Shown here: piece after piece, positions 19,301-50,300 of the stretch
Layout of the letters: each line of letters begins with the position of its first letter
Numbering within the stretch: the stretch's first letter is position 1
Assembly: GCF_000264905.1 (NCBI RefSeq)
Contig: NW_006763132.1
Location: 3,040,023 to 3,104,022, forward strand
Direction of reading: 5' to 3'
DNA length: 64,000 nt
Source of the DNA: Stereum hirsutum FP-91666 SS1
Taxonomy: Eukaryota; Basidiomycota; Agaricomycetes; Russulales; Stereaceae
The notes under the pieces: generated by a model
Databases searched by the model: none
What the model was told of the DNA's origin: nothing
What the model saw: the letters and a program-made list of their open reading frames with translations, nothing else
Made by a program: the position numbers and the translations under genes

Positions 19301-21838
19301 CGTACTCAGTCGTGTTTGGTAATTATGCAAGATGGTTGTGGTAAGTTGTGAGGAATGCAGGATGGACGGCAAGACGAGGTGAGCTTGAGAACTTGGTGGG
19401 GTGCGGGATGAAAGATGAGGATCTAAAGGAAACGAGGCTAGATTGGAAGGGAAAGAAAGAGGATGCCGAAAAAGTTTAAGTACGCGAGACATACACGTGT
19501 CGACACGGGTCCACAGTGGTCCACAATCGGTACATATAGCCAGCATAAGTACCTGTGGATCATGATATCCTCGATAGAATAGGGTTTCAGGGGACGGCGA
19601 ATAGGTGAGTCTATCTGACAGAAGAATGGAAGCGCCCGGTACGACAAGCCTGAGAGGAACACCGTTCGTGTGTCATTCAGAAATAAACCTTGGGAGACGT
19701 CAAGATGGGAGGAAGCAGACGAATAGACTAAGGGTGATAGGAGTTTGTGACCGTCCGCGAAGGCTGAGCCGCCACCGGTACCATGAGGAGAAGGAGAGGG
19801 ACCGTTGGGTTCTTCGCGCAGGACTGGGATGACTGGAGAGCGGGAACGAGGATGCGGTCTCGAGCGAGATGAATCCGAGGAAGCATTCGAAGGACACGGA
19901 GGACAGGCTGACTGCGGGAGGTGGAGGCACGGAGGAGTCAGTGCAGGTCACTGGACAAAATTCGGTGCGTCATCCGGTCCTTGGGTGTCTTGTTGGTTCG
20001 TGGCTTGGGCTTCTGGTTTCTCTCAGAAGACGTCGATAGCTGGATCTGATGTTCCGACGAGGATGGTCCAGGCTGAGTGGCACGAACGAAGGCTACAATC
20101 GGGTGGCGGAAAGGTTTGATCGCAGTGAGGCCGTATCGCCGACTCCGCCCCAATTGCATGTGGACTCCGCGAGGGAACTCAGTCTGAAATAGCCATGGAG
20201 ATGAAGAAACAAAAGGTGAGTTGATAGCGTTCATTCGGTGGATAATAGGATATGCTATCGTGCTTTATAATCGCCTCTGCCACAGCTTTGAGCTCGCGCA
20301 TAGACAACTATCACAGCCCGAACGCAAGGTTCAAGCTCAGAATGAACTTCGGTACCATCGCGATAAGCGCTGAAACACCGAGGCGCCCTGAGCACTCACT
20401 TCAAGTTGCCCCTGGCTCTGTATGCAGTGCACACACCTACAGGCCAATAGCTGTACGAACGCGTGCCCAGAACGACGAAGCTCCCCTCAATTGCTTTTGT
20501 GCTTCTTTCCTCTCATGAAGCCACTGGTATCAAGAGGAAAAAACACGGGATATGCCCAAGAAGCGTTAGCGCCGGGCGGCGAAGACGTAACAGGACAGAG
20601 AGAGAAACACAAGCGCACACATGTAGTGCTCGAAGCCGAAGTAGGCCCCCAAAGACCAGTGCTTCGTCCACGAGTCCATGCAGGCAGCCCCTGTGCCGCT
20701 GAGAGAACCGAGAACAAAGCGAGTCAGGTTGGGCCGAACCGGCGATTGCGAAGCAGCGCTTACGCGGATGTGAAGCTTTGAAGATTGGATGGGCACGATT
20801 GGTGAGGATTGAAGACGGGTACGGCAGAAGTGAGGAGAAGAGCTGGTTGTGGCTCTTTCTTCACATGGATCGTCATCGGGTGTGAAGTTGGGTAGACGGG
20901 AGGAGTTCTGACGCCGGACTGGAGTGTGGGTCTAATGCTATGTTTCGAGATGGATAGACGGTTCGGCGCTTCGCAGTCTCCAAATGTTGAGGAGAGGTGA
21001 TGGTGGTCAAGAGAGTTATGAGATGGTTTGGTGTGTCAGATGAAGCAGCCGAGTGTTTGTCAGTTCGTGGTACGATGGGGTCTTGATTTAGATCACGCTT
21101 AGTGTATCATCAAAAAAAAAGGAGAAGAGAACTGAGGGAAAATTCACCGAAAGAGTCGACAGGGAATCAAGCCACAACTCATAGCCTCTCATTGCACCAT
21201 TTAGGGTAAGTTGATAAGCTGTCACTTGAGCGGTTTCCCTGGGGCATTCATCAACGGAGATGATGCTGAAAATGTACTAGTTTCTAACGAGCGCAAAGGG
21301 GTACGGAAAGAGATCTTCACGCTCGATAGATCACCGTCGCCTGGTAAGTAAATATCTAATTAATATGCGGCTGTTTGATGGGCTGGACTTACCGTATCTG
21401 TGCATATGCAGCTGAGTTACGCTTGCTTGTCCACAAGACAACAAATGAGCGTGCCGAGCCCAGGGTCACGACCGTCGTCGTTCATTTGGAGAGAAAATTT
21501 CGCGGAGGCACATCACGGTCGAAGCGAGAGTATTAGAGTAATAAAGAGTGAGGGAAGGGCAAACATTGTACGTCTCCTGGTCATCGAGTTCGGTATTTTG
21601 GAGGTCTACTGTATAGTGAACAGTGATGACTGCCTCCCTCGATCTTTGATTCTGGACTTCGAGGCTATATGTTGGGCGTTCATGAACAAGTTCAACGACG
21701 AGTCGCTGTGGCCCGGGTGGCACCCAATGCGCTGGACAAACGTGGATTGACGTAATCAATCAACTGAAAGCCCTGTTCACCTTTGGGGAAAACAAGCTCG
21801 CATCCCCATCGATTTATCCATCCTCGCCCAACACCATC
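16372..21838. other. 5.5-kb gene desert
   Basis: This lies between the 5' ends of the minus-strand PH-domain gene and the plus-strand ACBP gene. Short open frames are scattered on both strands, but none has recognisable motifs or can be spliced into a longer frame. I see no tRNA, 5S rRNA or terminal repeats. The last few hundred bases must contain the ACBP promoter. It could be decayed mobile-element sequence or non-coding transcription units; the sequence alone does not decide. Confidence 0.5.
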
Positions 21839-31963: not shown

Positions 31964-32639
31964 GGAATACGCAAGATACACGAGTCAGACACGCCTTCGT
32001 ATTGCACTTTGTACACCATTTCTTGGGGTTTATTTGTTCCGTTGGTTCTTTTGCTAACAGTGTATATAACTTATTTGACAGTCAGTCCACAATATATTCT
32101 TGGTATGGCGAGATACCCGATTTCTCCATCATACTGGTTCGAGTCTTCGTCTGGTCTCGGACTTGCGATGGATCAGCAACACCTTTGATTGGGATCGGCG
32201 AAACCGAGTTCGTGCTGCTGATGTGGGCCGAGACTTTTTTTTGGCTCTCAACATCAAAACTTCTTCCATGCCGACACGTCCACGGCCTATGTTGCCCTTC
32301 GTCCACCACAGGACTCGTCCTCTTGCGGTACTCAAGCAACTCAATCGTACCTATTGCTCATTCAAGCCGTTGGCTTGTCTCATTGCGTCGGTTTGCTATC
32401 CTCTTATAGAGTCGTCCTCAAGGCGGTGTGCGGTCTTGAGAGACCGGGCGCTTGAAGTTGATCGCTTGCTTGCTGGCTAGTGATGTGCGGTTTGTGCGCT
32501 CTGCGAGCGAGCATGTGCTCGTCGCCTTGGGTTGTATAAAGACTCATCTTCAGAACATCTTCCCATTTTTCTTTCGAGCGCTATCCAACCTCTTACAGCC
32601 CTAGCCGTCTTCTTTTCTTCGACTCGAACATCAAAAACC
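31964..32639. promoter_or_regulatory. PEX11 3' flank and promoter of the first Cys-rich gene
   Basis: No gene fits here. TATAAA at 32535-32540 lies about 100 bp before the ATG of the first secreted Cys-rich gene and is its likely TATA box. The motif GTGATGTGCGG in the distal promoter (about 32481) recurs upstream of the second copy (about 34210), suggesting the promoter was duplicated with the gene. Confidence 0.55.
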
Positions 32640-33611
32640 ATGTTGTTCAGCCTCGCCACCGCCACTCTCCTCGCGACCATAGCGCGCGCCTCCGTCCCCA
32701 TCCCCGCTCTCCTCAACCGCCAAGACTCTGGCCTGTTGCCTCTCGGACAGAACTGTACGGCGAACGCGGAGTGTCAGAGCGAGAAGTGTTGGCCGGTTAG
32801 TTGGTATTATGGACAGACGGTGTGTTCGCCTAGTCCGGCGGGCGTGGCTTGTACGGATGGGTCGACTTGTATCAGCGGTCAGTCTCATCCTCCTCCCTCT
32901 CCATTTCGTCAGATGACGAGGCTGATGGTTGTGTGCAAATTGACTACATACGGCAGGGGTATGTACGAGTGACGGTGTATGCGACAAGAATACGGGGACG
33001 TCGTTCAGTGAGAACGGGAAGGATGGGCCGTTGTGTTATACGTCGAGTGATTGTTATGGGGGTGCGTGCCTTTTTATTTCCTTTGTACGATATGTGGATT
33101 ATTCTGTTGTTGATGTGATTATTGCCTTCTTCTCGGCATTTCAGACAACTGTATCGCTCCTTTCCTCGGCGGAGGTCAAAACACCCAGGTACGTCCATCT
33201 TACTCTTTCTGTCTGCTAGTAAGGTGTAAGAGGACGATATGCTGACCATAAGTTTTGCATCTAGTGTTTCCCAACTCACGTCGTAAGGCCTCCTCGCCTT
33301 TCCATCCAACCAACCAGCTTGCTTATTCCCCATCATCCCTCAACTATATAGGGAAACTACTGCGACGACCTCACCGGCTGCGTCTCAGGTTCGATCGTCT
33401 GACGCGCTTTTCCCTCTTCCTGCCACATAAGTACAAGTGTCTTACTGATTCACAACTCGTAACAGGGAACTGCGTCAACGCGACCTGCCAGCCAGGAAAT
33501 CACGCAGGTGCTGCTTGCTTCTTCTCAGACGCAAACGCTTGCGATGCTCCGTTCAAGTGCGATGTCGTCGCTATGAGCAGTCCGACGGGGGATTGTATCC
33601 AGAGCCTCTAG
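32640..33611 (+). CDS. Small secreted protein with 20 cysteines (copy A)
   Basis: Predicted extracellular protein of unknown function. Six exons fit in phase: 32640-32877, 32957-33061, 33145-33188, 33265-33282 (18 nt), 33352-33388 and 33466-33611, giving 195 residues. The N terminus (MLFSLATATLLATIARAS) is a typical signal peptide, and NRQDS before the mature part could be a short pro-segment. The mature protein has 20 cysteines with repeated spacing such as C-x5-6-C-x4-C (NCTANAECQSEKCWP) and CYTSSDCYGDNC. All 20 cysteines and every intron position are shared with copy B 1.75 kb downstream, so the two arose by tandem duplication. Paired, they could form ten disulfides. The pattern loosely recalls dickkopf-like or other disulfide-rich modules; no function is assigned. 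Confidence 0.85.
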
Positions 33612-34393
33612 AGGTTCTGGGTTCGTCGAAGTGGCACGGCGTATTGGGTGTCGTCCGAGACAGTTGGGAATCCTGAATCTGCTTCTTGGGCCTTTCATTT
33701 GGTTCTGTCGTTTGTTTGGGTTCGCTGATAGGGTATATAATCTACAGTGATTTCTAAAAAGATACTCTTTTTCTCGGGCACAACGAGGACAGAAACACTC
33801 ATTTATGCCTCAAACACGCAACCCATCCACGGTCTCCTTGCATCTTGGCACTAAAGGGGACTCGTTGAGATATGGGCGCAAGTATGGTCTTTGAGATCTC
33901 GTCGACTACAAAAGAACTATCGATTTCTATCACGTACGGGAACTGCTCTAATAACAATATATGATACTGGGTATGGCACACTGCACTCGCATCCCTTTTA
34001 TGTTATGTTGTCAGTGACTCGACTCTTCTTGTTGGCATCGGACGTACTGCGGATCAGCATTTGCTGAGAGTTGGGATCAGAAGAATGGGGATTTCGGTAT
34101 AGTCAACTCGTGACTCTCGGAATCCTCGACATCAGAGATGGCAAGTGAATTGTTGGCTTGATGTTGACGTCGATATCGTCTCTTTCCTTGTACGAAGTTG
34201 ACTTCGAGGTGATGTGCGGCTTTAGAAGGTTGTCCCTCTGAGACCAAGCCAAGCGCTGATCTGTGCTTGACAGGGCTTGAGCTTGGTGTGACATCTGCGC
34301 TCGAGCAACGCGTTTATTATATAACGCACCTTTGCTAGCTTTGAGCAACGTCTCTGTTCCCAATCACCCACTTCACTCGCAGATCGAATCGCC
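33612..34393. promoter_or_regulatory. Spacer between the Cys-rich genes and promoter of copy B
   Basis: This holds the 3' flank of copy A and the promoter of copy B. TATATAA at 34318-34324 lies about 70 bp before the copy B ATG. GTGATGTGCGG near 34210 repeats a motif found upstream of copy A. No additional gene is seen. Confidence 0.55.
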
Positions 34394-35382
34394 ATGCTCT
34401 TCAGCGTCGCCACCGCCACCCTCATCGCCACCCTCTTCATCACGATCGCACAGGGCTCCCTCCTACCCCTCGGTCAAGATTGTACCACAGACGCAGAATG
34501 TCAGAGCGAGAAATGTTGGCCGAGCAATTGGCATTATGGGCCCACTGTGTGCTCGCCTAATCCAGCGGGCGTTGCATGTGTGGACGGGTCGACTTGTATA
34601 AGTGGTCAGTTTCCTCCTTTGCCGTTGAATGGCGCGTGTTTGAGCGAAGAGATGCTGACATAGCTGGTTGGATGATATGGATATCAATCTGAGTAGAAAA
34701 ATGCACGAGTAAAGGTTTGTGCGACAAGAATCCTGGGACGGCGATTAGTGAGGCTTGGACTGGTCCGTTGTGTTATACGTCGAGTGACTGCTATGGAGGT
34801 AATACTATTATCTTATTCCCTCACGTCATTGATGTTATCTGACTTGAATATCAGAAAACTGTCAGCCAACTTTCATCGGCGAAGGTCCGAACACACAGGT
34901 GAGCTCTCGTACAGCGCTCTGAATTGAGTAAGTGGAGTTGACTCTCTAACAAAACGTATCCAGTGTTTCCCGACTGATGTCGTAAGTCAACCATATTATG
35001 TATATCCGTCCAACCCACCACTCAAAACGGCTTGCCTGATTTTTGCATCATACCTCGAATGTTTTGTAGGGAAACTACTGCGATGACCTTACTGGCTGCA
35101 TCTCAGGTTCGTTTTCCTTCCAGTCCGCCTCACTCCTTCCTCTGTAATAACTTTTCACATCGGAACCTCCTTGACGCTGCAACCAAATCCGGATCAAAAT
35201 GCTACTCTCAAAATGCCACTTGATGTCTAAACGATGCAGGCAGATGCGTCAACGCGACCTGCCTGATAGGGAACTACGGTGGCGCACTATGCTTCACCCT
35301 AGACGGTTGCGAAGCTCCGTTCGTGTGCTCCGTCAGTGCTATGACTAGCCCGACGGGTTATTGTCAGGATTACAACAACTAG
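34394..35382 (+). CDS. Small secreted protein with 20 cysteines (copy B)
   Basis: Tandem paralogue of the gene at 32640. Six exons fit in phase: 34394-34604, 34697-34798, 34855-34898, 34964-34981 (18 nt), 35070-35106 and 35240-35382, giving 184 residues. Exons 3, 4 and 5 have exactly the same lengths (44, 18 and 37 nt) as in copy A, and all intron phases agree. The signal peptide is MLFSVATATLIATLFITIAQ; the NRQDS-like pro-segment of copy A is absent. Shared blocks include ECQSEKCWP, GVACVDGSTCIS (one change from A), PLCYTSSDCYG, GNYCDDLTGC and CVNATC. The DNA between genes and most introns have diverged much more than the exons, suggesting selection on the protein. Confidence 0.85.
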
Positions 35383-35709
35383 TAGAGCAGTGGTCAAAGC
35401 GGCATGGTGCGCGGGAAGAGGCATGATAGGGAGGGTGAATAAATTAAAATTTCGATCTTGGGTAGGTTGGTGTAGGGGCCAGAATATGGAGTCATATTTG
35501 GGTCGTTTCATTATGTTACAATCATTGAGTACAGAATCCTTCTACCATGTAAGTAGAGCCGTCGTGAAATGCAGCTTTCGGGAGAAAGACCTCGGTGAGA
35601 CCTCGGGGTGGGCTGGAGGAATTTGGACCGAGGCCGAGCGTGACGATGGTCCTATGTTAATGGGCAAAGACTAGTCTTGCACCTACGGAGGGGTCGGAGG
35701 CGTTGGCGA
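35383..35709. other. Spacer between copy B and the RecQ/DUF6589 element
   Basis: This 327-bp stretch includes the 3' flank of copy B. I see no gene and no clear target-site duplication next to the inverted repeat that begins at 35710. Confidence 0.5.
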
Positions 35710-35724
35710 CTCGGAGTTTGAATT
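35710..35724. repeat. Left inverted repeat of the RecQ/DUF6589 element
   Basis: CTCGGAGTTTGAATT is found here and, as the exact reverse complement, at 47376-47390. Extending outward by seven bases keeps three more matches, giving 18 of 22. The repeat lies 214 bp upstream of the helicase ATG. Confidence 0.65.
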
Positions 35725-36936
35725 AGCACACGGCCGTGCTGCGGCAGCCACCTGAATTTGAGAGAATTGCGAATTCGCCGCGCGAACGCCACATGGACGA
35801 TAGCTTACGTGACATTTTGAGTCGCGTCGCGTCGCCGCCGTCGCGTTCTGCTTCTCGTCTCTCTTGCCTCGTCGCGTCTCCGGCTCGCTTCAGTGCTGTC
35901 ATTGTCTAGGCTGTGTACATATTATTTATGCATAGATCATGAACCTCGCTCTTTTGAATGGTTCCTCCTCCCAACCTCCTTCTTTGGCCCAAGTCTCTGA
36001 AGTTCTCTGCTCGAGAGCTCAAGTCTCCGCCCTCCGAGAGCAGCAAGAAAAGCCCATCATGTCTCTGGTCACGGGCAATGACACCTTCGTTGTGCTCCCT
36101 ACCGGTGGCGGGAAGACTCTCATTATGCTGGCCCCCCTTGTGATCGCTGATGCTATGGGCCAGCCCGGCAAAGCCTTCATCATTGTTCCGACCAAAATAC
36201 TTGCAGACCAACAGGTGCGTGGGGAAGTATCACATTTGGCAAGCACGTACTAACACTCAACACCCTCTCAGGCTGAAGAGGCTCGCAAGTATGGCCTTCA
36301 CGCACAGTCCATTACCGAAGATACTGTCCGCATAGCGGCCGCTTCTCTGCCCAGTCGTGACTTGTTCCAGGAGTTTGCGAACCAGAGTGGAGTGGCGGTG
36401 GCGATCATGAGCCCGCAGATGATGGGTGGAGATCGGGTCAATAAGTTGATGCAGTCGGAGGCATTCCGAACACTTGTTCGGTGGGTTTTTGGTCGATGAA
36501 TCCCATCTGGTGGACGAGCAGGGTTCGACCTTCATCGTACCATACAAAACTCTTGCATCGTGGAGGTCTCGACTAGGATCCAAGACAGTGTGGGGAGCAT
36601 TTACAGGGACTGCTTCCCGTTCTCGTACGCCCCACATTACAAAAGCACTCGGTTTCATCAATGAAGAGTTTGTATATACTCGCTACCCTATCGACCGTCC
36701 CAATATCAAATATCTCCCCCGTTTTTTCGAGCATCCATTCACGGGCGAAAGCCTTCTCGACTTCACCTTCCTCATACCATTCAATATGTCTTCCTCCCAA
36801 GCCATCGTAAAGACTCTCGTATTCGCAAAGACAATCGAGTACGGAGACCGTATCATTCGATTCCTCGACTACATCATCGCCCTTCGCTTCCCCAGCCTCG
36901 CCAACCGCAGCAAGATCATCATGCCGTACAACTCTC

Positions 36937-36968
36937 ATCAGGAAAAACCCCCCTACCTAAAGGCCCCC
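36937..36968. repeat. AT target duplication and left terminal inverted repeat of nested element
   Basis: AT at 36937-36938 is the target copy. The element begins at 36939 with CAGGAAAAACCCCCC, which matches the reverse complement of the right end (CAGCAAATTCCCCCG) at 11 of 15 bases. Over 30 bases 20 match, including CCTAAA in register. Confidence 0.75.
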
Positions 36969-36969
36969 A

Positions 36970-37165
36970 ATAGTTACTTATATGCACCTATAGGCACCTA
37001 TAGGCAACCATAGGCATAGGTGGATTTAAGCTATGTCCCAAAATATGTTTGCACCTATAGCTGCCTATGGCTGCCTATAGTTGCCTAAACTTGCCTATAG
37101 GTGCCTATTAGGGTCCTATCTAGGGTCCTATTTATTACCCAATAAGCAGCTATAGGCAGCCATTA
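36970..37165. repeat. Left subterminal repeat array
   Basis: Roughly ten to fifteen copies of motifs around CCTATAGGCA, in both orientations and often palindromic (CACCTATAGG, GCCTATAGTTGCC, TGCCTATAGGTG, AGCTATAGGCAGC), in under 200 bp. Such arrays are normal transposase-binding regions in CACTA-like elements; the role here is inferred. Confidence 0.8.
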
Positions 37166-37994
37166 GTGCCAATAGCGAACTATATGGCTAAGTATATGGG
37201 TACTTAATAGGCTGGAGAAAATCTCAAATGTCCACTCTGAGGAACCATATTGGGGCAAAAGTAAATGCCATTCAATCACATAAAGGTACATTCCATGATG
37301 TACTAGACAAGAATACAGACAAATCCCACAGGGAAATAGGCTAAAGTATATGGACTGTGTGCAAGTGCAAGTATGCATGCATGTGAGAGGTCACATCTAA
37401 GAGGGTGAGCACCAAAAGGGAATGAAAATAGGAGTGAGCAGGGAAGGGAGGATGTGGGTGCAGCGAGGGAGAGCAACGGGGGAGAGCAGGGATGCGAGCA
37501 TGAAAGAGAGCACGATAAAAAGTGCGGGTGGAAGTGTGGGCACGGGTAAGGATGTTGGTGTAAGTGCTGATGAAGGTGGGTAGATCTGAAAGGGTGAGCA
37601 TGTGCGAACGAGGGTAAGCGAGAATAGGGTAACGAGCCCGTAAAAGATGTGGGAGAGGGTGGGAGAGAGGGTGGGAGGGATAGAGGAAGATGAGTGGGAG
37701 GGGCAGAAATGAGGTGGCTGCGCTGAAAAGCTGAGCGTACACGAACTACTCTGCATGCTGAGCGAATGCATGGCCGAGGTCGTAAAAGGCAAAGACAAAG
37801 ATCTGTAGCGGCTCAGGCGACTCGCCCAGATACTGTCACACTCTCAGAGGGGACAAACAGTAGACTTGACGGCATTGCTGTGGATGGTTTCCGGAACGTC
37901 GCCAACCTGGAACTGGTCTAAAAAATATTTGAGATAAACGGTGAAGGGACATACATTGGGGAAGTGAGATGTCGAAGTACTCGGATGGAGGCAT

Positions 37995-39265
37995 CCACTT
38001 CACCGAATGAGCGCGGGTGCGGGTGTGCACGCGAGAGGTCGCGCGTGGGCGAGCGAGCACCACATAGGCAAGAAATTGAGACCAGAGCGGAAGAGCTAAT
38101 GAGAAAGAGAGAATATAGATGCTGTGGGAGAGCGACGAGTAGGAGGAAGAGCAGAACATGGAGAGGGCCGCGAGAGGACGACTGCGAATGTCGACGATGG
38201 CGACTAGTTGCTCTAGAGGCTGCCGGAGCACTAGCGACGAAGAGCGAGGCGAGGACGAAGAAGAAGAGGTGGGGATGGTCGCGCGAGGGTGAGCGAAAAA
38301 AGGAGGATACGTTGACGGAGGGAGAGAGAAGAAGGGGCTACGGAGTTGGGGAAGACCAAGCGAGGGAGGGAGAGAGTAGAAAAGAGGATTGAAGCGGCAC
38401 CCAACGCAATCCACTTCACGGAGCGAGCGAGTGTGGGTGTGCGCGAAAGGTCTTGAGTGAGAGGACGAGCACCGAACCGTAAAAAATGACAAAAGCGGGA
38501 GTGAGCAAGAAAGAGAGGATGTTGATACGATGAGGGAGAGTGATGGGGGAACTCGATGGGGAGTGTCAAGGGAGAGCAGTGATACGATCACGAAAGAGCA
38601 CGATAGAGAAAGCTGAAAGCACTTACAATAGTCCGAACGTCCAGCGGGCCATCCAACCTTCACCAAACATCTTTCCCTCATTCTCACCTCCGCTCCGTCC
38701 ACTGCCCAACCGTCGCCGTCGCATCCTGGAGCGTATCACCGATAGGGTTGATAGGGTTGATAGTACGGCCCTCCTGGCTGCGGGTATCGTTAAGCGACGA
38801 TGAGGGAGTGAGGAAAGGAGGGCAAAAGCGAGTACGCCGTTAGCAAAAAGAGAAGAAAGGGGCGCGACGAGATTAGTGAGTGTTGCAAGTGGTGTATAGA
38901 GAGGACTATCTGCGGACCATGTCGACTTCACCACCCACGATTTCATTGACCAACGTTCCCTCCCATCCACTTCAACGAATGAGCGCGGTTGCGGGTGTGC
39001 GTGCATGCGAGAGATCGCACGTGGGCGAGCGAGTGCCGCATAGACAAAATAACCAAGACCAAGGGAAAAGAGCGAGTAAGAAAGAGAAGATAAAGATTCA
39101 GTGAGGGGGCGAGGGGGAGGCGGAAGATGAGAGGGTGTCGAGAGGGCGAGTGCAAATGTCGACGATGGCGACTGGAAGGCTGCCGTAGCGACGGAGAGCA
39201 AGACGAGGACACAAAGTAAAAGGAGGACGGGGATGGTCGGGAAAGGGTGGGCAAGAAAGGAAGGA
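37995..39265. repeat. Degenerate long direct repeats inside the nested element
   Basis: The segment starting at 37995 (CACTTCACCGAATGAGCGCG) recurs at 38968 (CACTTCAACGAATGAGCGCG), and similarity continues for about 300 bp at a steady offset near 970 bp; GTCGACGATGGCGACT is identical at 38190 and 39158. A third, more divergent copy of the unit starts at 38412, and a trace is visible near 37365. This looks like old tandem amplification. The long minus-strand open frames here are purine/pyrimidine-biased by-products of the repeats. Confidence 0.7.
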
Positions 39266-40042
39266 TGTGGATATGGTGAGGGTGAGGGTGCGTGGTGCGA
39301 GCGAAGGTGGAGATGGAGAGAGGGACGAAGGAGCACAAGTCGCGACTCGACGCGAAAGTCAACATCGGCCAAACACGGCCAAACAAAGACGTGGGTTGTG
39401 GCGACGACGCGCCTTGCAACTCTTGTTCTTCGTCTCCCACCCGACCTATGTCGTGCACAGGACCTCCCTGGACAACGATCGTGCAAGTCGAATGGATGTG
39501 GGAATGGAGGTTAGTATGACGAAAGGTACAGCGGCCGCGGAGGAGAATAAGAGCTCGGTGCGTCCCGTTCTTTTTCTGAGGTACCCCCTTCTCTATCTCA
39601 TCCGCTACCATCTCAAACAGTCTCAAACCCTCTCGTCAGCACCTCCTCATCGACCTTCGCCGCCTCCTTTTTCTTTCACGTGGACACAATACCCAGATGC
39701 GTTACCGGCGGCCTAGCATCCATCATCCACATCCTCGTCGTCGCCACCAACCCACCCGCGCCCAATCCGTCCTCTCCGTCCTCATTATCAACGGCATGCC
39801 CGATTGTGGTATCGCATTTGACGGGCCCGACGTACTTACCGAATCGTTACGTTGAGAGCAGGAGTTAGAAAGTGAGAGAAAGAGGGAGCATGAGTCTTCG
39901 AGTGCTGAAGTCCTGACTGAGAAGGCTGCGTTGCATGGGTTCGGGACGCCGGCGGATGTGTAAAACAATCGTACGTTCATTCCCTTTCGTTGAATATCTT
40001 ATCGCCGTTTTCTGCTCCGTATACGTCGCTGATGCTTCACAG

Positions 40043-40400
40043 GCTAGCGCTTCTCTACTTCAAGTACACCCTTTTCTTTTTCCGCCCGCCTCCGCCACCT
40101 CATCGCGCTCGCGGACGACGTTAGACCTCCCCACCTTCATCCAACTCGTGCCTCAATCTTTCCAGTGCAACACGGCCTTCATAGGCTTCTCCAACCTCGG
40201 CGACACCGACTCCCTGACCAAGACATGGAAGGTATGTCTTCGTTTTTATTTTGTTGTCTCTTTGTTATTCGTTTCAAGTTTTTTTTCGTGCCATCGGGCT
40301 GACGGCTCGAGAACCCCAGCTGGCGCCTCTGGCACCGACGATGCCAAGCCCAAGCCTGAGTTCAAGAACTATTCGAAACATAAGAGAAGGGCAGGTGAGC
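40043..40400 (+). pseudogene. Captured fragment of an AreA-type GATA-like domain gene
   Basis: After a plausible acceptor (ttcacag, ending at 40042), the frame reads into DLPTFIQLVPQSFQCNTAFIG and DTDSLTKTWK, followed by a donor-like gtatgtct at 40231. Beyond the intron-like stretch, another frame gives RLENPSWRLWHRR, and a third continues with FKNYSKHKRR. The sequence SLTKTWKV...RLENxSWRLWH is the core of the fungal AreA GATA-like domain (PF08550, DUF1752), which occurs in nitrogen regulators and many related proteins. The needed frame changes and missing parts show a non-functional piece. It sits inside the nested element, so it was probably copied from a host gene. Confidence 0.65.
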
Positions 40401-40564
40401 CTCTCCACGTCGACCCTCCTCCTTCTTCTTTCCCCTGAAACCTTTGATGCTGACGCTCTGTCCGCCACCCTTCCTCTTCACCCATGCCCCTTCTCTTCAC
40501 CCACGCCACCTGTCGCCCCCCACCTCCCTCTCTGGCGCCCAACCCCAACGGTAAACCCAAACGC

Positions 40565-41090
40565 CCCTCGGGGTCCGCGTCGAAGGTTACTACGAAGAGA
40601 TCGTCGACCAACGCTCACTCAACCCTTATCCTCTCGCCGTGCACGTCTCCGCCCTAAAACCCACCTCCAACCTCTCCGGCTACCTCGAGCGCAAGCTCTT
40701 CACGCTCAACACCGGCCACGCGTGCACCGCCTACTTCGGGTCCCTCCTCTTGTACCTCACCATTGACGCGGCGATTAAGGATAAGAGGGTATGTGAGGTC
40801 GTGCTTGGAGCGCTAGAGGAGGGCGGGGGAACATTGGTGAGGCGGTATGGGTTAGAGGCGGGGCTTCATCATCGGTATGTTCTCCCTGTGCTGAAGAGGT
40901 TTGAGAACCTGAAATTGAAGGAGGAGGTGATGCGCGAGATGGCAGCCGTTGAGGAAGCTGGGCAGAGGGGATAGGTTGTTGGGTCCTGTGGCGTACGCTC
41001 CGAAGAGCTCGACACTCTCAACTTGAGATGCCCCCACTCGAGCGACATCGTCTCCCAGCGCGCCGACGAGTCCCCGGAGTAGCGTGCTGG
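40565..41090 (+). pseudogene. Captured fragment of mannitol-1-phosphate 5-dehydrogenase
   Basis: The frame from about 40570 encodes VRVEGYYEEIVDQ, then YLERKLFTLNTGHACTAYFG, AIKDKRVCEVVLGALEEGG, LVRRYGLEA and RFENLKLKEEV. These line up in order with the C-terminal half of bacterial and fungal MtlD-type mannitol-1-phosphate 5-dehydrogenase (ERKLFTLNTGHAxTAYxG is its most recognisable block). The frame stops at 40971-40973. In the next frame LRKLGRGDRLLGPVAYA follows, which is the family's next block, so a frameshift interrupts it near 40945; further shifts follow. The N-terminal NAD-binding half is absent. The piece is part of the nested element and cannot make an enzyme. Confidence 0.8.
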
Positions 41091-41864
41091 GGTGTGTTTC
41101 TGACGCGTAGCTCGTGCCCAAGAGGTTCGCCACCTTTCTCAGTCCGAGTGCGCGTGGATTACCGAGGACAGCAGGGAAACGGGAGAGTATTTGGAGGTAG
41201 GGCACTGGAGAGACCGAGGGACACCATATGACAGTGTATATCCAGGCCGGACGAGGTATGTCTTTTGTTTCCCTACGTTTCGTGGTCAGGTTTCTTTCAC
41301 GCATTCAGATAGTACTGACTGTCAGTTCGACGGTAAAACTGGAGATCAGTCACAGCGCCCGCTGACACTGACGAATACGTTGCCGTCGTTAGAACCCATG
41401 TCACGTGCAGCGACCCAGACGTCGTCGCATGCCAGGCAGGTGGCGGGTATATGACGGATACGATGCTGACAGTAGCCTCTCACCAACGCGGACACCTGCA
41501 CTGTCACCAGCCGTGACCAGGAGGCCTCGGCGGAGAGCTGATCGTAGGTGTCGGTGTCGAACGGGGCATCGTGGGCCTGGAACCGAATGATGGTTTCACG
41601 ATGCACGCAACCATCGAGGACACTGTCCATCTCACCGCCTCTTTTCTTCGTCCTTCGTCATCTTTGTGATGATATTATTGTATTAGTGTTGCCTTGTATT
41701 TAGAGAAAAGTAGATCACAATTTTGAGTAATGTTAATATCTGTATCTGAAGTGGGCAATGTACATATGTAGATTGTACCAGTAGCAGTGTGAGAGTGAAA
41801 ATTAAACAAAGCGAGCTCAGCGCTGCCCCGGAGTCGCATTCGAAGCGACCCGTAGCTAGGTAGA

Positions 41865-41957
41865 TTTAGGCGTGTTTAGGCAGCTCTTAGGCGAGCGCCA
41901 CCGCGGAGGCGCGACTTCCAGTTTAGGCAGAATTTAGGAGCGGGGGAATTTGCTGAT
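41865..41957. repeat. Right subterminal repeats, right TIR and AT target copy
   Basis: Several TTTAGGC or CTTAGGC motifs (from about 41865) lead to the right end, where GGGGGAATTTGCTG finishes at 41955 and AT at 41956-41957 is the second target copy. The helicase frame resumes directly after it (GCT CTT ATG). Confidence 0.75.
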
Positions 41958-43187
41958 GCTCTTATGTCCCCCGACTACCGACGCCAATTTGCTCAAGATT
42001 TCCGAGACGAAGGTTCGAACATGCGCGTTGGTGTCGTAACCGATACTTGCACGTATGGTCTCGACTTGCCCAATGTCCGACGGGTTGTTGTTGCGGACAT
42101 GGATAGGACACCGGAGAATCTCAAGCAGACTATGGGCCGTGCAGGTCGGGACGGTCGTGAAGCAGTAGCCATTGCGTTCGCACCTCCCTGGGCTCGCAGG
42201 CCACCAGAAGGAGCCGCTCTCACAGGGAAGCAAGCACAAAAGGACGCAAAGCGACGGGAAACCCTACCAATCTTCACGCAGCAATTCTACAATCCTTCTC
42301 CAACCCTCTGTCCGCGGCGCGCTGACCTCCAGCATTATGGTGATGAGTTTCACCCCGAACTCACATGTGCATGCATCGTACACACTCCTGAGCCGGAACA
42401 GACCACAGACTCGGCCTGTGTGCAACTATGGATCGAATACCTTGCCGCTGAAGCCACGACTCCCCGTGCGGTCTCTCTTCGGTCGGATGGAACGTACCCG
42501 CCACTAGACACGCCTATGAAAGCCTCCCTTTCTGCCATGCTTCACACCTGGACAATTCGGCAGTGGGTTCCTTTCCGTCGCCAGCACAACATCTCAGAGC
42601 TGATGCCGGTGGCATGCTTCTGTCCGCGACACGTCCTCGAACATCTTGTTGAGAAGGCTCACGTTTGCACAACGATGGAGCGACTTGGAACGGTGATGGA
42701 TGGGTGGAAGCATTTTGCCACTCACGGAGAGCCACTCTTCCTGTGGCTCACGGTGATTTTGAAGGAGTGGAAGGATATACATGGTGAATGTCGGGAGTCG
42801 CAGGCTGTCGGTGTAGACTCCGGAAATGAGGTGGGTGGTGCTGATGAAGACGAAGACGAGGCGATGAGTGATGGAGTTGCAGAAGACCCGTCAATGGCAA
42901 TCAGGTCGACAACAGCGCCTGCCATCGCCGTTGCCACCATCAACAGCGCCACATCAACTCGACCTCGCGTTCTTTTGAGGTTACCAAACCCCGTCTCTCC
43001 ACCAACGTCTCCTTCGAAACGCACCTCCTCTTCGCAGCAGGATCTCGAGTCTCCGACAAAGCGCCGTCGCCGCACTAGGAATGCAGGGAAGGAGAACGTG
43101 ATGGAAACCGGATCCACGGACTTAATTTCGACTCTACAATAGTCTAGGTGCTACAAACCTACGTACATATTGCTACTTTATCCTATC

Positions 43188-46100
43188 CTATTCAGCTGCC
43201 CCACCAATAAATCCCAACAAAGCCAGTTCCCCACTCACAGAGGTGATCGGATTGGTCGGTGACCATTCAACTACTGGTTCCCCTGACTGCTCCGACTCTC
43301 TAGCTCCTTCTCCCTCCACGCCATCCCCCACTGATTCTCCTAAGTCGACCCATTCTCGTGTCGTTCGGGCAATGAACTTGGCAAGCTGGCCACCGGTAAG
43401 CTTGTGAATGCCTTCGTTGAATTCATCTCCGACAACGTACGGCTGGCGTCAATTTGGCTTGAAAGACATGATGTGCTCGAGCCGATAATGAAACCCTAGC
43501 CGGTTGATGTCACCGTTTGACTTCGGATTGGTATGTCTCCCGCCGTTCCGTTTGAAGCCGAAGAGAATAGGAAATCTCTCACGAAGCGCGCTAAAGCCCC
43601 CTATGTTGAGGCCAACGTGCTCCGCAAGGTGTTGAGAGTCGAAGGTATGGCTCTTCGAGTTGAAGAGTCGCTTGATCCAGAAATTGTAATGCTCTTGTAT
43701 AAGATCGAGTTCGACCCAATGGCCAGGCAGACCAGATGGATTTGCGAGGTAGTTGTTCAGGATAGCGTTGCGAAGGTCTTCGGGGAACTCGTACAGGAAG
43801 TTACAGGCCATTTCGAGAAGCTCTGTACCATAATTGGTAGAGCCCGCACCCCAAAACGAAAAGCGCAAAAGCTACGTCGTAGAGCGGCAGATTATATTTG
43901 AGTACACGCAGCCCGAACTCATGAGATCATAATGCTGACCTTGATGATCTCGAAGACACGTCCAATGTCGCCCTCTGCTATAGCGGAGCACAACATCAGA
44001 TACCAGCATGTTGTGCGCAGGAAATTGCACGTCGTTTGGAGAGCCTGGTCTTCGCCTATGGACGCTCTGGATGGGTCTGTCGCTGTCGCGACCTTTTTCT
44101 TCTTGCTTTTCGGTTTCTGTTTCTGACCACGGTTGGTCGTAGACACTTCCTTTGGTTCTGTATTGTGTAAATTAGGACTGATACAATGCAACGGCGAATG
44201 TGTTGAACTCACCGCCTTCAGCGCTGGTGGTAGCCTCACCGGGTGTGTCGTTCTCCGATGGTGCCACAGGGGGACCGTACACCGCATCAGTACGCTCAAC
44301 CCCATGTGCTGCATCATGAGCAGCAGAGCAGAGATAACGTGAAAATACTTTCGCTGCGAACACTTCCAACAGGTCGAACGTGCTGTCCTTCAACGGGCCA
44401 TCTGATCCGAAAAACCACTCTAGCCCCTCCAAGAGTGGTAGTTTTGTGGAGTATGACTTGCCGCTGTGCTCTTCACAAAGGAGACTAAGTAAGAGGCTCA
44501 ATGATCAGCAACAGACCTCTAGGAGTGAACAGAACGGGGCAATGAAAAAATCAACTTGAAAGAGGCTTAGTAGTGCTTACCGAAGAGCATCCAACATCAT
44601 CGCATCAAACCTATCTTCAAGAATCTGATGCCCAGGGTAAAAATCGCACTTCTCGGCGTTGAACTTCCCTCGCTCCATAACTTCGCTATCGTGGCGTAGG
44701 CCGAATATTGTGGCGCCTGTCGAGTCATGCCAGTGTAGGCGAAATATGTTCTTCTGCCAGTTCCACTTGAGGTGCCACAGCTGGATGACTGGGAGCGCAA
44801 AGTCGTGCTTGTCGTAAAAGGTGGAGGATTTTGACATGTACCGTTTGACTTTACGAATGCGGTCGATCGTGAGCTGATCACCGCAGATCATGATCAGCCA
44901 CTTGACCCAACTTCCAAGCACGCTCAGCTGCTCAACCAGCATGTTCCGAATGACCGCCACAGTACCAACGGTCGTCGATTCGTCAATGTCGTTGGTTCGC
45001 ATGCTGTGTATCTTCGACTTCCGGAGTGAGAGGGGATGCAGGGCATGTTTGGTTGTGAACAACGTTTCGGTGGGCTCGCGAAACTTTGCCAGCGAAGGGA
45101 CATGCTTGATCCAGACTCGAAGGACGGTACCCTGCGAGACTGCTTTGATGTGGTCGGTATTGATATCTTTGAGGAGTTTATCAACGGTAAGTTCGGCGCG
45201 TTTCTTTGCAAGAAGGTTTGCCAGGACGGGCTCTGGATCAAGGGCGCCCGGCGGAGCATCGACTAACTCAATGAGCGTACAGGCTGTGCCGCTCTTCACT
45301 TCATCCTTATGACCAAGAGTTTGTTGCCATGCTCGTCTCATCTTGTTTACGTTGTCGTATAGGAGGAGGAAGATGGGAGGCGACCATTGAAGTGCTTGAC
45401 CGCATGCACGTAAGAAGCCTGCAGAGTCTGTAGACAACGTGTCGAGGCAGGAATATATTGATCGTTGTGATATCGAGAAGCCTGTGCGGCTGAGAACAGA
45501 GATGATGTCGTGATGTGCATTGCATGTGAAAAGGAATATGCCGATGATTGTAGGGAACATGATAGCGTATCGGTAACGGAATACAAGTAGCGCCAGGATC
45601 GCAACGGTAGCACCCTACAAGGCTATGAATTAGTATCACCAAGTCCAACCAGAAGAAAGAGAGGTGAGCGAGCGACGCTTACCAGCCATGGATCACGACG
45701 CATAGAGGGCGGAACGCCCGTTGATTTCAGAATGTCTGGCTCTGATCCAGCTTCCACCTCCGACTCCGACTCCGACTCCGAATGCGAGCTCATGTCCCCA
45801 TCCTCCCCATTGACCGTTGACGATGAAGCGGACGAGCTAGGCTCATCGCTTTGCGCAACGACACCACCATCCAAAAGTGGGGAAGCTCGTGGCCTGTCGG
45901 TTGAGGTGGAGGGTGGCGCGGGTGGCGTTTGCGGGTTTGCGGTGGTCTCGAGAATCTTGCGGCTGCGTTCGTTGACCGAGATCGTGGCCGCAAAAGCGAA
46001 TGTCGCAGGGGCCGTCAGCGCGATTGCCTCCTGCGCTTCCGTGAGGTCCCATTTAAGGATCGATGACCACGAAAGGGGCATGCTGGGCGTCCGGACTAAG

Positions 46101-47163
46101 CCCAAGCTAGGCTCGAATAGTCTAGGGACCTCCACGTCTACGCGTTCCAAGACACGTAGAAGAGACCAGTTCATGAGCGCATTGCGTGTTGTATTATCTG
46201 GGTCAGGGGAAGACAGCGCCGGGAGCAATCGTTGTGAAGGAGGAAGCGCGTGACGGGGCAGCGTGAATACCGGCTCAATTGGAACACGGTCAGTGTATTC
46301 TTGTGCGAACCGGTGGTTAAACAAGAGATCGACGAGAGCGGCAGGGTGAGTTCGGAGGTCCTGTGACTTGCATCTAACGAATGCGGAGAGACTGAGCGCG
46401 ACGGGGGAGTTTGTGCTGAATTGGGTGTCCTTCGACAACAGCGCCAGTCCAAAATCTCCGATATTGTCAAAGCCTGCCTGCCGCATGCACCGGATTACGA
46501 GAAGGAGTTGCTGCTCAGCGGTGACCTCGAACGGCCAATGGAAGCGCGCACGGGAGCTGGAGCTGGTTGTATTGGGAGCGATGCCGTGAAACAAGTTCCG
46601 GGCAAAGGAACGTTCGAGGTGAGCGCAGAGTAGATCATCTGGCGAAATATTGGCGGGCGATGGGGTGGGTGGTGCAGAGAAAGATAGAGGGTAGGCGGGT
46701 GGAGTGTAAGATGGCGGGCCTAATGGATGGTGAGTTGTCCACGGTGCAGGGCCGGGACTATGTAGACAAATTAGCATCACTTCTTACATCCAAAACTATG
46801 CAACTGAGGATAGATATACCTGATGAAGCCTGGGTGTGGAGCATAAAAGATACCAGAGCCAGACGAAGGGGATGGAGGTAACGGTGTATTTGGGGTCGAA
46901 AGGGAGCGAGGATTCTGAATGAAAAGTTGAGGGATCGGATCCGACACTAAGCGACGAGTATAAGCACGACGAGGGGTCGGAGACAGTGGTAAGTGACTGG
47001 ATGGAGTATGCGTAGTGGTCGATGGCAGACTCGGAGGCAGGTGAGAGCCCAGGCGGACTGGGGTGCGAGGGCGAGTGGCGTCCTCGTTCCGCTCGTCGAG
47101 TCTAGCTGATACAGGTGCAGAGGGACGCCCCGCGCCAAAGGGAGCCTGTTCTTCTCCAGCCAT
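43188..47163 (-). pseudogene. DUF6589 protein with one in-frame stop
   Basis: Large agaricomycete protein of the DUF6589 family, function unknown. Six exons fit in phase: 47163-46820, 46757-45683, 45614-44581, 44484-44213, 44157-43940 and 43871-43188. The N-terminal half is Pro/Ser-rich with an acidic ESESESEVE stretch. The conserved part starts around residue 474: a hydrophobic LALLVFRYRYAIMFPTIIG region, FLLLYDNVNKMRRAWQQ (D near 560), WLIMICGDQLTIDRI (D near 719) and LWHLKWNWQKNIFRLHW. Later blocks are NYGTELLEMACNFLYEFPED, LPGHWVELDLIQEHYNFWIK and HVGLNIGGFSALRERFP. A basic KQKPKSKKKK could be a nuclear signal. TGA at 43451-43449 stops it after 1121 residues, but the same frame continues through VVGDEFNEGIHKLTGGQLAKF to TAG at 43188. 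This is a nonsense mutation in an otherwise clean gene. Confidence 0.82.
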
Positions 47164-47375
47164 AGTTGAGCTGCCAGCTCAAGCCAGCAGATTTAACTGT
47201 ATACGACAGGAAACCTATACACGACAAGCGTGGAGCAAGAACGCGTTCGAACGCGTCGCGGAGAAGAACACCGCGAAAAGTTCAACGCGTCGCGCCATGT
47301 GGAATTTCAAATGATCACACGATCGAGATCCGCGGCTGGCTTCGGCATCAAGGAAAAGGAACGAGTGTTTGCCCG

Positions 47376-47390
47376 AATTCAAACTCCGAG
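47376..47390. repeat. Right inverted repeat of the RecQ/DUF6589 element
   Basis: AATTCAAACTCCGAG, the exact reverse complement of 35710-35724, about 210 bp upstream of the DUF6589 start codon. The distance from repeat to start codon is nearly the same at both ends (214 and 212 bp). Confidence 0.65.
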
Positions 47391-50300
47391 GTCCCACCGG
47401 TTACGGGCCCCACATAGCCTCCAGACTCTATAGTGAAGAGGAACGATTGTCTTCCTCGATCTTGGAGTCTGGATTTCGAGACTAGGCAAAGACCAACGGT
47501 AGTTCAACTTGTCCGACACGAAAACGTGTAGGAGGGTTATGACGTTGCCCACAAGTTATACTCGTGTACCAATGGATCGTAATCATCCATTTGGTTTTGA
47601 GACGCCTCGATCATACCGTATGAGATGTCTGCGCCTCTGCGCCTGTATTATGTTCAACGCGATGTGGTGGTAGGTCGTGCATGGATTTTGCTATGAGTCG
47701 ACCTTGTCCTCGGCATGAAAAACCACAAGGTCAACCTCCACTTCTCTCGTGCGCAGAACCTCGAAGTTTGTGAAGAGTCTGGAGCAGTTACTGCATAATC
47801 ACTGGTAGGGTGTGGACAAGTAAGCATGCTACACCTCACCGGATTCTTCGTTCTGACCTCCGAGTCCTCTAGTTTAGACAAACTGATCCTAATGGACCAG
47901 TAGAGGACAACGTTGAAGGTATCCGACCCACCGAGGGCATATAACCAAGAGTCAAGGATTTCAAGTCGCCGCTCGTTATTTGGCGTCGGTTTTTGTTGCG
48001 TGAACAAAGCCCGCAAGGGATGATAGAGTTTTTCACATCGTTTAGCCCATGGACTATGTGAACGGGGAGCTGTGATCGCCCTGGGTCCGGTGGAGCTACC
48101 ACGGAGTGTAAAGACCCTGAGGACGCGCTCACGATGAATGCCAATGTAGGACCGTCATGCCGTACGATGAAAGCGAGTATTTCGACAACATACGCGAGGC
48201 AATATTTTCGCACAGTCGGTGATAACATAGCCACTGGAGCAGAGCCGTCCATTAACCCCGATGAGGGTCCTCCGCAAAGACCAGATACTGGCTGAAATGG
48301 GAACAAAGCCATATCTTCCGATAAAACGTCAACACGTCACAAATAACACCGGTGTTTTGTATGAGAAGCGGTGGATAGGGTATGTAATAGCACGAAGAAA
48401 ATGCACGATGGACAAGCTCATCTCGGGCGCCACGCACCGATGTGAACGAGAGAGTGACTCACCACCTACTCCAATTGACGTCCAGCTGGTCTGAAAATTA
48501 GACGTCCTCTATGACACCGCAGGTCTGGAGCGAGAGTGCACGATAAAAGCTTCTAGATGGACTGCCGTGAGTGCGAGACGAACGGATGTTGTAAACGTTC
48601 ACTGGATATTTGGAGTCTTCACCACTCTAGGAAGGAATGGTTTTGATGATCAGTGAGAAGTAGACGTACCTTAAATAACGAGAAAAGGTTGGTCGGCAGG
48701 CAAATGAGCCTTTGACAATGAATAGGACATTCACATAGCCATGCGACGCCACGCAACGGTCATGACCCGGCTCGTCCTTCATTTTGAGCACGAGTCGACA
48801 GCCCTTCAACACTCGGCTTTTCCTAATTGGCCTGGGTGGGAGAAAATCGCATCAGGAGAAGTGAAGGGAACTAAGAAAAAAAATAAACACACTTGTTTAC
48901 AACATCTTCTTGTAGCGCGGAATCTGACTCCCACACACACTGCTTGGGATTTGTACTAGGCGACCGGTGGGTTCCTATGACTAAGAAGAGTACAAGCCTG
49001 AACAGAGACACTCATCTATCACGATTGACCATTTTGACGGCTACTGGGGACCTTCTCTGAAACGCACGAAGCATCCTAAAAGTAGTACATAACTGATGAA
49101 TACACCTAGAGCTTTTGTAAGAACAAGGATGAGATCTTAGTATAGAGAGATGTCTGTCCAGGTCTATCAAGACCCGACGCGGAAACTCCGCACCCGCACG
49201 GTCTCTGTGCTGTTTGTATTACTTCTCCATGTCGGACTTGGTTGGACCAGGAGCCGGAGAGCGAAAAAGAAACAGGGCGCACCAACGACGTGAGATCTGG
49301 CCGGTGTTGTTTGCTGTTCTAGGGCCGTCGCGAGTGGCGTTTCACTCACTGCATCCAATACAATCTTGTAACTCGAGGCGGTGCTTTCAACAAGGTTATC
49401 CCGTAAGGATCGTTGGGGGACGGGTACTGAGACAAGGAGGAATTCTCGACCTTGCATATATTGAGAACAGAGTGAGCTGAGTTAGTTCCGGAGTTCGGAG
49501 CAAGGATGAATGAACTACTTACGACCATTCTCATCTCGTAGAGCACATCAACAGTGGTAATCCGACTCTGTTTGTGATTTCAACAACCAATATGTCGATC
49601 GTCGTTCGGTACCCTAGCATCAAGAACTGCCAGCAAACTGCCAGCATATAAAAGAATAATAAGATGGACCACAGAGATAACGGGATGTTCGTTGTGTTCG
49701 TCGAAACGCGAGAACAGAGGCAATCTAAATTTAGGGATGAATGACATGCAAGCACGAATTCTCTCGCCAATGAGAGAGAGCCTTCTGCTAGAGCGAATGA
49801 AACAGCACTCACCTCCGCGAGAGATGTGGACTGATCAGTGCACTCTCCATCCTCCACTTCCTTTCTGTCCATCCATGTGTCCAATTCGTAGGAAAATCGA
49901 GTAGCCATGAAAAAAAAACCCTCCTTCCTTTCTTCCTCAATGTGAGAGCCCGCAGCACTTCTCCAAACACGCATGGATCGCATCAGACTGGGACAGATAG
50001 GCAAATGAGAGTGGAAGAGACATGCTGAGGTGTTGTCGACCGTCGTACACGGAAAGGCGCGGAATGTGCTGCGAAGTACAATCGTGCACTTCATATATCT
50101 CAACGCACGACTGGAATCCGTGTCTGGTAATGTTAGTGTTCTTGTCAATGTGTTTTTGGTCCCGAGCCACCGCTACCAACGAGCCACGTTACGCTTTCGC
50201 CCCAATGATCTCATCGATACAGGACCCCAGGTGCGACACCGACATCGTTTTAATAGCCGGGGGCCAAGCGAATCTCGAGCCTCGATAGTGTGTCCAGATT

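Follow-up and report, generated by a model that had tools for sequence, protein, structure and literature searches.

A probable AcademH-like DNA transposon of Stereum hirsutum pairing a DUF6589 protein with a RecQ-like helicase, and a proposed one-ended mode of insertion

Results

Two convergent genes lie within a bounded element

The window analysed here, a stretch of 64,000 nucleotides from Stereum hirsutum FP-91666 SS1, holds a transposon at positions 35672-47484 that has TAGTCT termini and a perfect 9-bp direct repeat (GGCAAAGAC) outside them. A Pfam scan identifies a DEAD/Helicase_C helicase gene on the plus strand and a PF20231 (DUF6589) gene on the minus strand (E 1.3e-116), and the two are convergent. 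The tail-to-tail arrangement reported in a preliminary description of this locus is indeed seen, with 45 bp separating the stop of the helicase gene (43142) from one on the minus strand (43188-43190), and in the DUF6589 frame a TGA at 43449-43451 lies ahead of the latter stop. The window copy of the transposon is broken, and its helicase gene is not intact. The features are as follows.

35663-35671, no strand: target-site duplication, left copy, GGCAAAGAC (9 bp); locus reading and scan for duplications with inverted ends
35672-35691, plus: helicase-side (left) terminus, TAGTCTTGCACC...; two genomic copies by a 24-bp pattern with up to 3 mismatches
35710-35724, plus: first arm of the subterminal 15-bp repeat, CTCGGAGTTTGAATT, 38 bp from the left end; pattern search
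35939-43142, plus: RecQ-like helicase gene (DEAD and Helicase_C), broken; Pfam scan and gene model; exon 1 at 35939-36214, intron at 36215-36271, frame change near 36480, nested insert at 36936-41958, remainder to 43142
36936-41958, no strand: nested insertion of 5,023 bp in the helicase gene, with inverted ends CATCAG and probably a 2-bp duplication (CT)
43449-47163, minus: DUF6589 gene model; exons 46820-47163, 45683-46757, 44581-45614, 44213-44484, 43940-44157 and 43449-43871
47376-47390, minus: second arm of the subterminal 15-bp repeat, 94 bp from the right end; pattern search
47421-47472, minus: nested hairpins of the transposase-side end; outer arms 47465-47472 and 47421-47428, inner arms GAGGAA and TTCCTC between them
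47427-47484, minus: transposase-side terminus, TAGTCTCGAAATCC..., 58 bp that also recur alone in the genome; DNA and pattern searches
47485-47493, no strand: target-site duplication, right copy, GGCAAAGAC (9 bp); locus reading

Within the nested 5,023-bp insertion, a fragment of Mannitol_dh_C (E 4.9e-18) lies at about 40.6-41.0 kb, and AGGCACCTATAGGCA-type repeats occur close to the left end of the insertion. To the left of the element, diverged direct repeats (about 69-90% alike), apparently small genes that were duplicated, occupy 32600-35400.

The borders lie outside the 15-bp inverted repeat

The preliminary description had bounded the unit by a perfect 15-bp inverted repeat (CTCGGAGTTTGAATT), which is indeed present, at distances of 214 and 212 bp from the two start codons, as is an inner inverted match (CCACATGG/CCATGTGG) at 35789 and 47295. 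Its argument that chance would seldom yield such a pair also stands, given that the window has only two matches with up to 2 mismatches, against a mean of 0.13 in shuffled sequences, 1 of 100 of which held two or more. Both repeats had to be given up as termini, since similarity to a second copy goes on for another 38 bp before it reaches a border, and the ends are marked by a 9-bp duplication. This second, deleted copy on C23 is 229 bp long, has the same termini as the window element and is flanked by its own perfect 9-bp duplication (CTCCCGAGC). BLAST aligns it with window positions 35669-35845 (98.3%) fused to 47430-47485 (98.2%), so that the middle is missing; its left-end sequence extends outward beyond 35710 and, inside, switches to sequence from past 47390. 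Read at both loci, the outermost common sequence begins with TAGTCTTGCACC... at 35672 and ends with ...GGATTTCGAGACTA at 47484. By the preliminary description, similarity running beyond 35710 and 47390 without a common border would refute the unit; it does run past both positions, but a common border exists, and because the common ends and the 9-bp duplications sit 38 and 94 bp further out, the 15-mers are subterminal. A scan around both genes for any 9-bp duplication combined with inverted ends ranks this pair of borders first. The termini share TAGTCT and are identical at 9 of their first 20 positions, and inverted ends and target-site duplications, as expected of a DDE/D transposon of the TIR class, are both present.

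An exact search of the whole 46-Mb genome returns seven copies of the 15-mer, which is thus not specific to the element: two are in the window, one is in the left end of the deleted C23 copy, two are on C10, and the single copies on C6 and C12 have differing surroundings. The C10 pair (C10:375810 and 391217) was considered as a second element and rejected, as it falls within an inverted duplication that is 82% alike over 1.7 kb. The genes of this duplication, which flank other sequence, look kinase-like from their motifs, and the proximity of the 15-mer to them suggests that it is possibly a common promoter motif shared with the element.

Border scans of five other DUF6589 loci gave borders for two relatives. 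The C15 relative is a clear case (C15:848519-855919), with ends TAGTCTCGTTTCCAGACGTT and TAGTCTCGTGTCCAGACGTT that are alike at 19 of the first 20 positions and an 8-bp duplication (CTGGTGGC). For the C9 relative (C9:832844-843753; ends TAGTCTCCCACAGAC and TAGTCTTATTC; 8-bp duplication GTGAGCTA), the border pair scores barely above chance pairs. Repeats elsewhere in the genome confirm the transposase-side terminus; support for the helicase-side one comes from the 8-bp match. The duplication length of 8 bp comes from one copy of each element. At the DUF6589 loci on C21, C23 and C36, the scan yielded no convincing border pair.

DUF6589 genes are paired with helicase genes

The S. hirsutum genome contains at least 13 DUF6589 loci, obtained by grouping 21 matches of a PF20231 search by hand. 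A search with a helicase relative, P0102, gave 26 matches at 21 places (E up to 0.01, also grouped by hand), and a helicase match lies within about 6 kb of 12 of the 13 DUF6589 loci found, whereas by our own arithmetic about 0.12 pairings within 10 kb would be expected by chance. Ten of the pairs are convergent, one is divergent (C7:231 kb) and one, on C31, has both genes on the same strand; the C31 helicase match is also the weakest of the 12 (E 1.1e-4, with two stops). The preliminary description had asked whether DUF6589 genes occur elsewhere without the helicase, and in this genome the sole exception, on C11, is a 45-bit fragment.

DUF6589 is present in many mushroom genomes according to a database search, in which P0001, the best match, is 98% identical to the window protein. 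One contig of Favolaschia claudopus, 1,106,453 bases long, encodes both a DUF6589 protein (P0026) and the helicase P0102. This helicase is one of two named fungal helicase matches; for the other, P0103 of Mycena sanguinolenta, the contig is not among the 98 listed DUF6589 matches. P0102 matches TIGR00614 with 1.6e-32 and 113 bits, below the cut-off of 219.8, and RecQ chains in the PDB are matched at 1.4e-20. A profile search from the DUF6589 alignment returned nine proteins, seven of them already known and two being metagenome pieces without a Pfam domain. One DUF6589 query and one helicase query against viral contigs confirmed no relative.

DUF6589 resembles DDE transposases

DUF6589 is the only Pfam family over cut-off in its gene, its sequence finds no match in the PDB, and the name appears in no paper of the literature that we searched. 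Three acidic residues never vary among 24 diverse aligned members: D452, D611 and E920 in the numbering of P0001. In a larger alignment, of 58 members, their conservation is 90% or higher. In an AlphaFold model (mean pLDDT 85.6), D452 is part of the strand that opens the core and D611 comes right behind a later strand; a long, mostly helical insertion precedes the helix that holds E920. The two top Foldseek matches are to P-element transposase (E 0.23-0.28). A second look with VIA-align placed only DDE recombinases among the first 17 matches (Hermes 10.3, P element 9.4, Tn5 7.5, ISCth4 6.5, Transib 6.3, RAG1 6.0), and a comparison with BFVD gave nothing at E < 0.001. The prediction that DUF6589 is a DDE-type transposase with D452/D611/E920 as its candidate triad is well supported by this modelled RNase H-like fold, the match being structural and distant. 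A likely function for this Pfam family of unknown function would thus be that of the transposase of RecQ-paired transposons. The idea put forward in the preliminary description, a mobile unit with the DUF6589 protein as recombinase and the helicase as its partner, gains support from the exact termini with their duplication, the second copy with the same borders, the 12 of 13 pairings and the DDE-like fold.

One end of the window element recurs alone

A DNA search with the transposase-side end of the window element gives 28 genomic matches including the window itself, and a 31-bp pattern with up to 3 mismatches gives 23, with none for the reversed pattern. For the helicase-side end, a 24-bp pattern (up to 3 mismatches) and a DNA search find two copies, in the window and in the deleted C23 copy. 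The window family therefore has an excess of transposase-side over helicase-side solo ends. We pooled 29 places from both searches, leaving out the window and the C23 copy, and read them all. At 9 of the 29, a perfect 9-bp duplication hugs a stretch that runs from the terminus (point changes aside) to 31-58 bp inside. With up to 1 mismatch the duplications number 13 and with up to 2 mismatches 15, where swapping flanks between loci leads one to expect 0 (perfect), 0.07 and 1.46, respectively. The inner ends of the 13 loci fall at 31, 42, 43, 45, 47, 49, 57, 58 (five times) and 65 bp, and the 57-58-bp type exists in two sequence variants. A clear duplication is absent at 16 of the 29 loci. A degraded solo end of this family, with no clear duplication, is also found at 21613-21667 (minus), 14 kb to the left of the element. 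Open frames around 17 copies showed no consistent pattern of solo ends serving as introns, and the main text of an introner survey mentions neither Stereum nor basidiomycetes.

If solo ends are a property of the transposase-side end, then the C9 family should have them too, and we checked this. The transposase-side pattern of that family occurs at 28 places including the C9 element, and the control gave 0. We read the other 27; six share one flank, and dropping five of these leaves 22. Perfect 8-bp duplications flank 7 of the 22 (0 of 462 with swapped flanks), and with up to 1 mismatch the count is 12 against 0.33 expected (12 of 27 against 1.31 before the shared flanks were dropped). The length of 8 bp was picked after the C9 element had been seen; at 9 bp, 7 of 22 have up to 1 mismatch, against 0.24 expected. 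Inner ends of the 12 are at 38, 44, 47, 47, 51, 51, 53, 53, 54, 54, 54 and 59 bp. Three of the 22 loci run on past the hairpin described below and may be longer copies. In the C15 family, the end has one further copy, on C4, which is end-like for about 35 bp and has no duplication.

The flank that recurs with a C9-family solo end at six places (one being C23:96097) suggests that this insertion probably lies inside another repeat that spread later. A different C9-family solo end, at C3:1788292, has an 8-bp duplication and lies precisely on the edge of a helicase match (C3:1787777-1788292) that has no DUF6589 match nearby.

The recurring ends carry nested hairpins

The transposase-side ends of both families contain nested inverted repeats. 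Counted from the terminus, the outer arms are at 13-20 and 57-64 and the inner arms at 28-33 and 42-47 in the window family; the C9 family, by a consensus reading, has them at 14-23 and 51-60 (outer) and 26-31 and 41-46 (inner). The hairpins are thus nearly co-located, and their sequences are different. By criteria fixed after the ends had been seen, such nesting appears in 7 of 2000 dinucleotide shuffles of the window end, in 1 for the C9 end and in 0 for the C9-family consensus. DNA folding z-scores for the same three are -2.06, -5.30 and -3.60, while another folding run gave -1.67 for a longer piece of the window end and -0.53 for the 58-nt solo end, from which the second outer arm is mostly missing. 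The solo copies most often have their inner ends at 57-58 and 53-54 bp, at or near the start of this second outer arm. Nested hairpins are present in none of the three helicase-side ends, nor in the transposase-side end of the C15 element.

Discussion

With a probability that we put at roughly 0.8, the locus at 35672-47484 is a broken DNA transposon composed of a convergent DUF6589 DDE transposase gene and RecQ-like helicase gene, and most likely belongs to AcademH or to a sister group; a one-ended working is proposed for it below. A competing view of the locus itself is that two unrelated neighbouring host genes happen to lie within a chance 15-bp repeat. This might draw on the occurrence of the 15-mer near non-transposon genes on C10, but the pairing at 12 of 13 loci, the shared termini with target duplications and the deleted copy with the same borders refute it, and we give it practically no weight. 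Kolobok transposons have TTAA as their target duplication. An assignment of the element to KolobokH has in its favor that this Kolobok lineage is fungal and encodes a RecQ helicase (PMC9587614, in the part available), but KolobokH has its helicase positioned downstream of the transposase domain, whereas here it is a separate convergent gene, and the duplications GGCAAAGAC, CTCCCGAGC, CTGGTGGC and GTGAGCTA are 8-9 bp long and none is TTAA. Such an assignment is very improbable.

The solo ends suggest an unusual mode of moving, and we read them as products of one-ended, abortive copying. In this tentative model, which we consider rather less likely to be right than wrong, a DDE transposon would insert one end first and copy itself in a target-primed fashion with its own RecQ helicase, and hairpins would stop abortive copying. 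The transposase would recognise the TAGTCT ends and join the 3' end of the element over a staggered cut, from which 8-9-bp duplications would arise, and the transposase-side end would be joined first. Primed by the target 3' OH, copying could then proceed inward on the transferred strand as the element is opened by the RecQ-type helicase. The 3' to 5' movement of RecQ helicases would carry the enzyme inward from the joined 3' end. Copying that is completed to the other end would yield a new element; where the new strand folds into the hairpins, copying would halt and leave solo ends of 31-65 bp with their own duplications. If this model is true, the solo ends correspond, among DNA transposons, to the truncated copies of LINEs.

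Two other origins of the solo ends deserve weight. They might be ultra-short non-autonomous elements, very small MITEs moved whole in trans, with the recurrent inner end as a second terminus. The clustering of inner ends (6 of 13 at 57-58 bp in the window family and 5 of 12 at 53-54 bp in the C9 family) and the two sequence variants of the 57-58-bp type are what one would look for in such elements, but no TAGTCT terminus is found at the inner end, and the other inner ends (31, 42, 43, 45, 47 and 49 bp; 38, 44, 47, 51 and 59 bp) abut duplications too, and so we regard this origin as possible but doubtful. Alternatively, full or deleted elements could have been excised imprecisely and cut at the hairpin rather than at the terminus. 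Excision of this kind would be expected to leave one end and both duplications, and the hairpins could direct the cut, yet dozens of former full insertions would be needed when the helicase-side end turned up nowhere but in the window and the C23 copy, which makes this unlikely. On our reading of one-ended copying, the solo ends of two families, which differ in hairpin sequence and share their architecture, constitute a natural record of transposase action on one end, and they make the purpose of the helicase directly testable.

Several known systems share parts of this picture. The hAT (Hermes) and P-element transposases are the top structural matches of the modelled DUF6589 fold and appear to share with it a long helical stretch inserted ahead of the final acidic residue, but the DUF6589 gene has no other Pfam match over cut-off, and hAT and P-element transposons are not known to carry a helicase. 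Kolobok-1_CCri likewise has a RecQ helicase, which is on the complementary strand there (PMC9587614, in the part available); KolobokH and Kolobok-1_CCri differ from the present element, which has 8-9-bp duplications and DUF6589 as the only Pfam family over cut-off. One-ended Helitrons of Chlamydomonas (CRe-1, 2 and 3) keep one end, have the other truncated and are in some cases flanked by duplications (PMC3627910, in the part available), but Helitrons use an HUH nuclease whereas the protein here looks DDE-like. Single-ended events of piggyBac in cells are described in the available part of PMC3952818. In the literature that we searched, nothing matched one-ended or solo-end DDE insertions with hairpins.

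The closest resemblance is to AcademH, which is, reportedly after Kojima in 2020, a lineage of the Academ superfamily. According to the available text of the respective papers, AcademH transposons carry a helicase gene and give 9-10-bp target duplications (PMC10045372), are low-copy in Basidiomycota among other fungi and have DEAD and Helicase_C domains (PMC10799480), and nonautonomous putative Academ elements are widespread in Marasmius oreades (PMC8290104). As helicase-encoding DNA transposons with 9-10-bp duplications are thus in print (PMC10045372 and PMC10799480, as far as their available text goes), the term 'undescribed' in the preliminary description is not supported as worded. The element resembles AcademH in its DEAD and Helicase_C helicase. 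Its duplication is 9 bp in the window and C23 copies, which fits AcademH, and 8 bp, from one copy each, in the C9 and C15 relatives; a nested-hairpin end and solo-end insertions are absent from the AcademH descriptions in the available portions of PMC10045372 and PMC10799480. The element is most likely AcademH-like, a member or a sister, and we name it AcademH-like rather than AcademH because the comparison is one of descriptions. In sum, this is a real transposon that was first given the wrong borders and whose family is likely known, and its hairpin end and solo ends are what would surprise a specialist.
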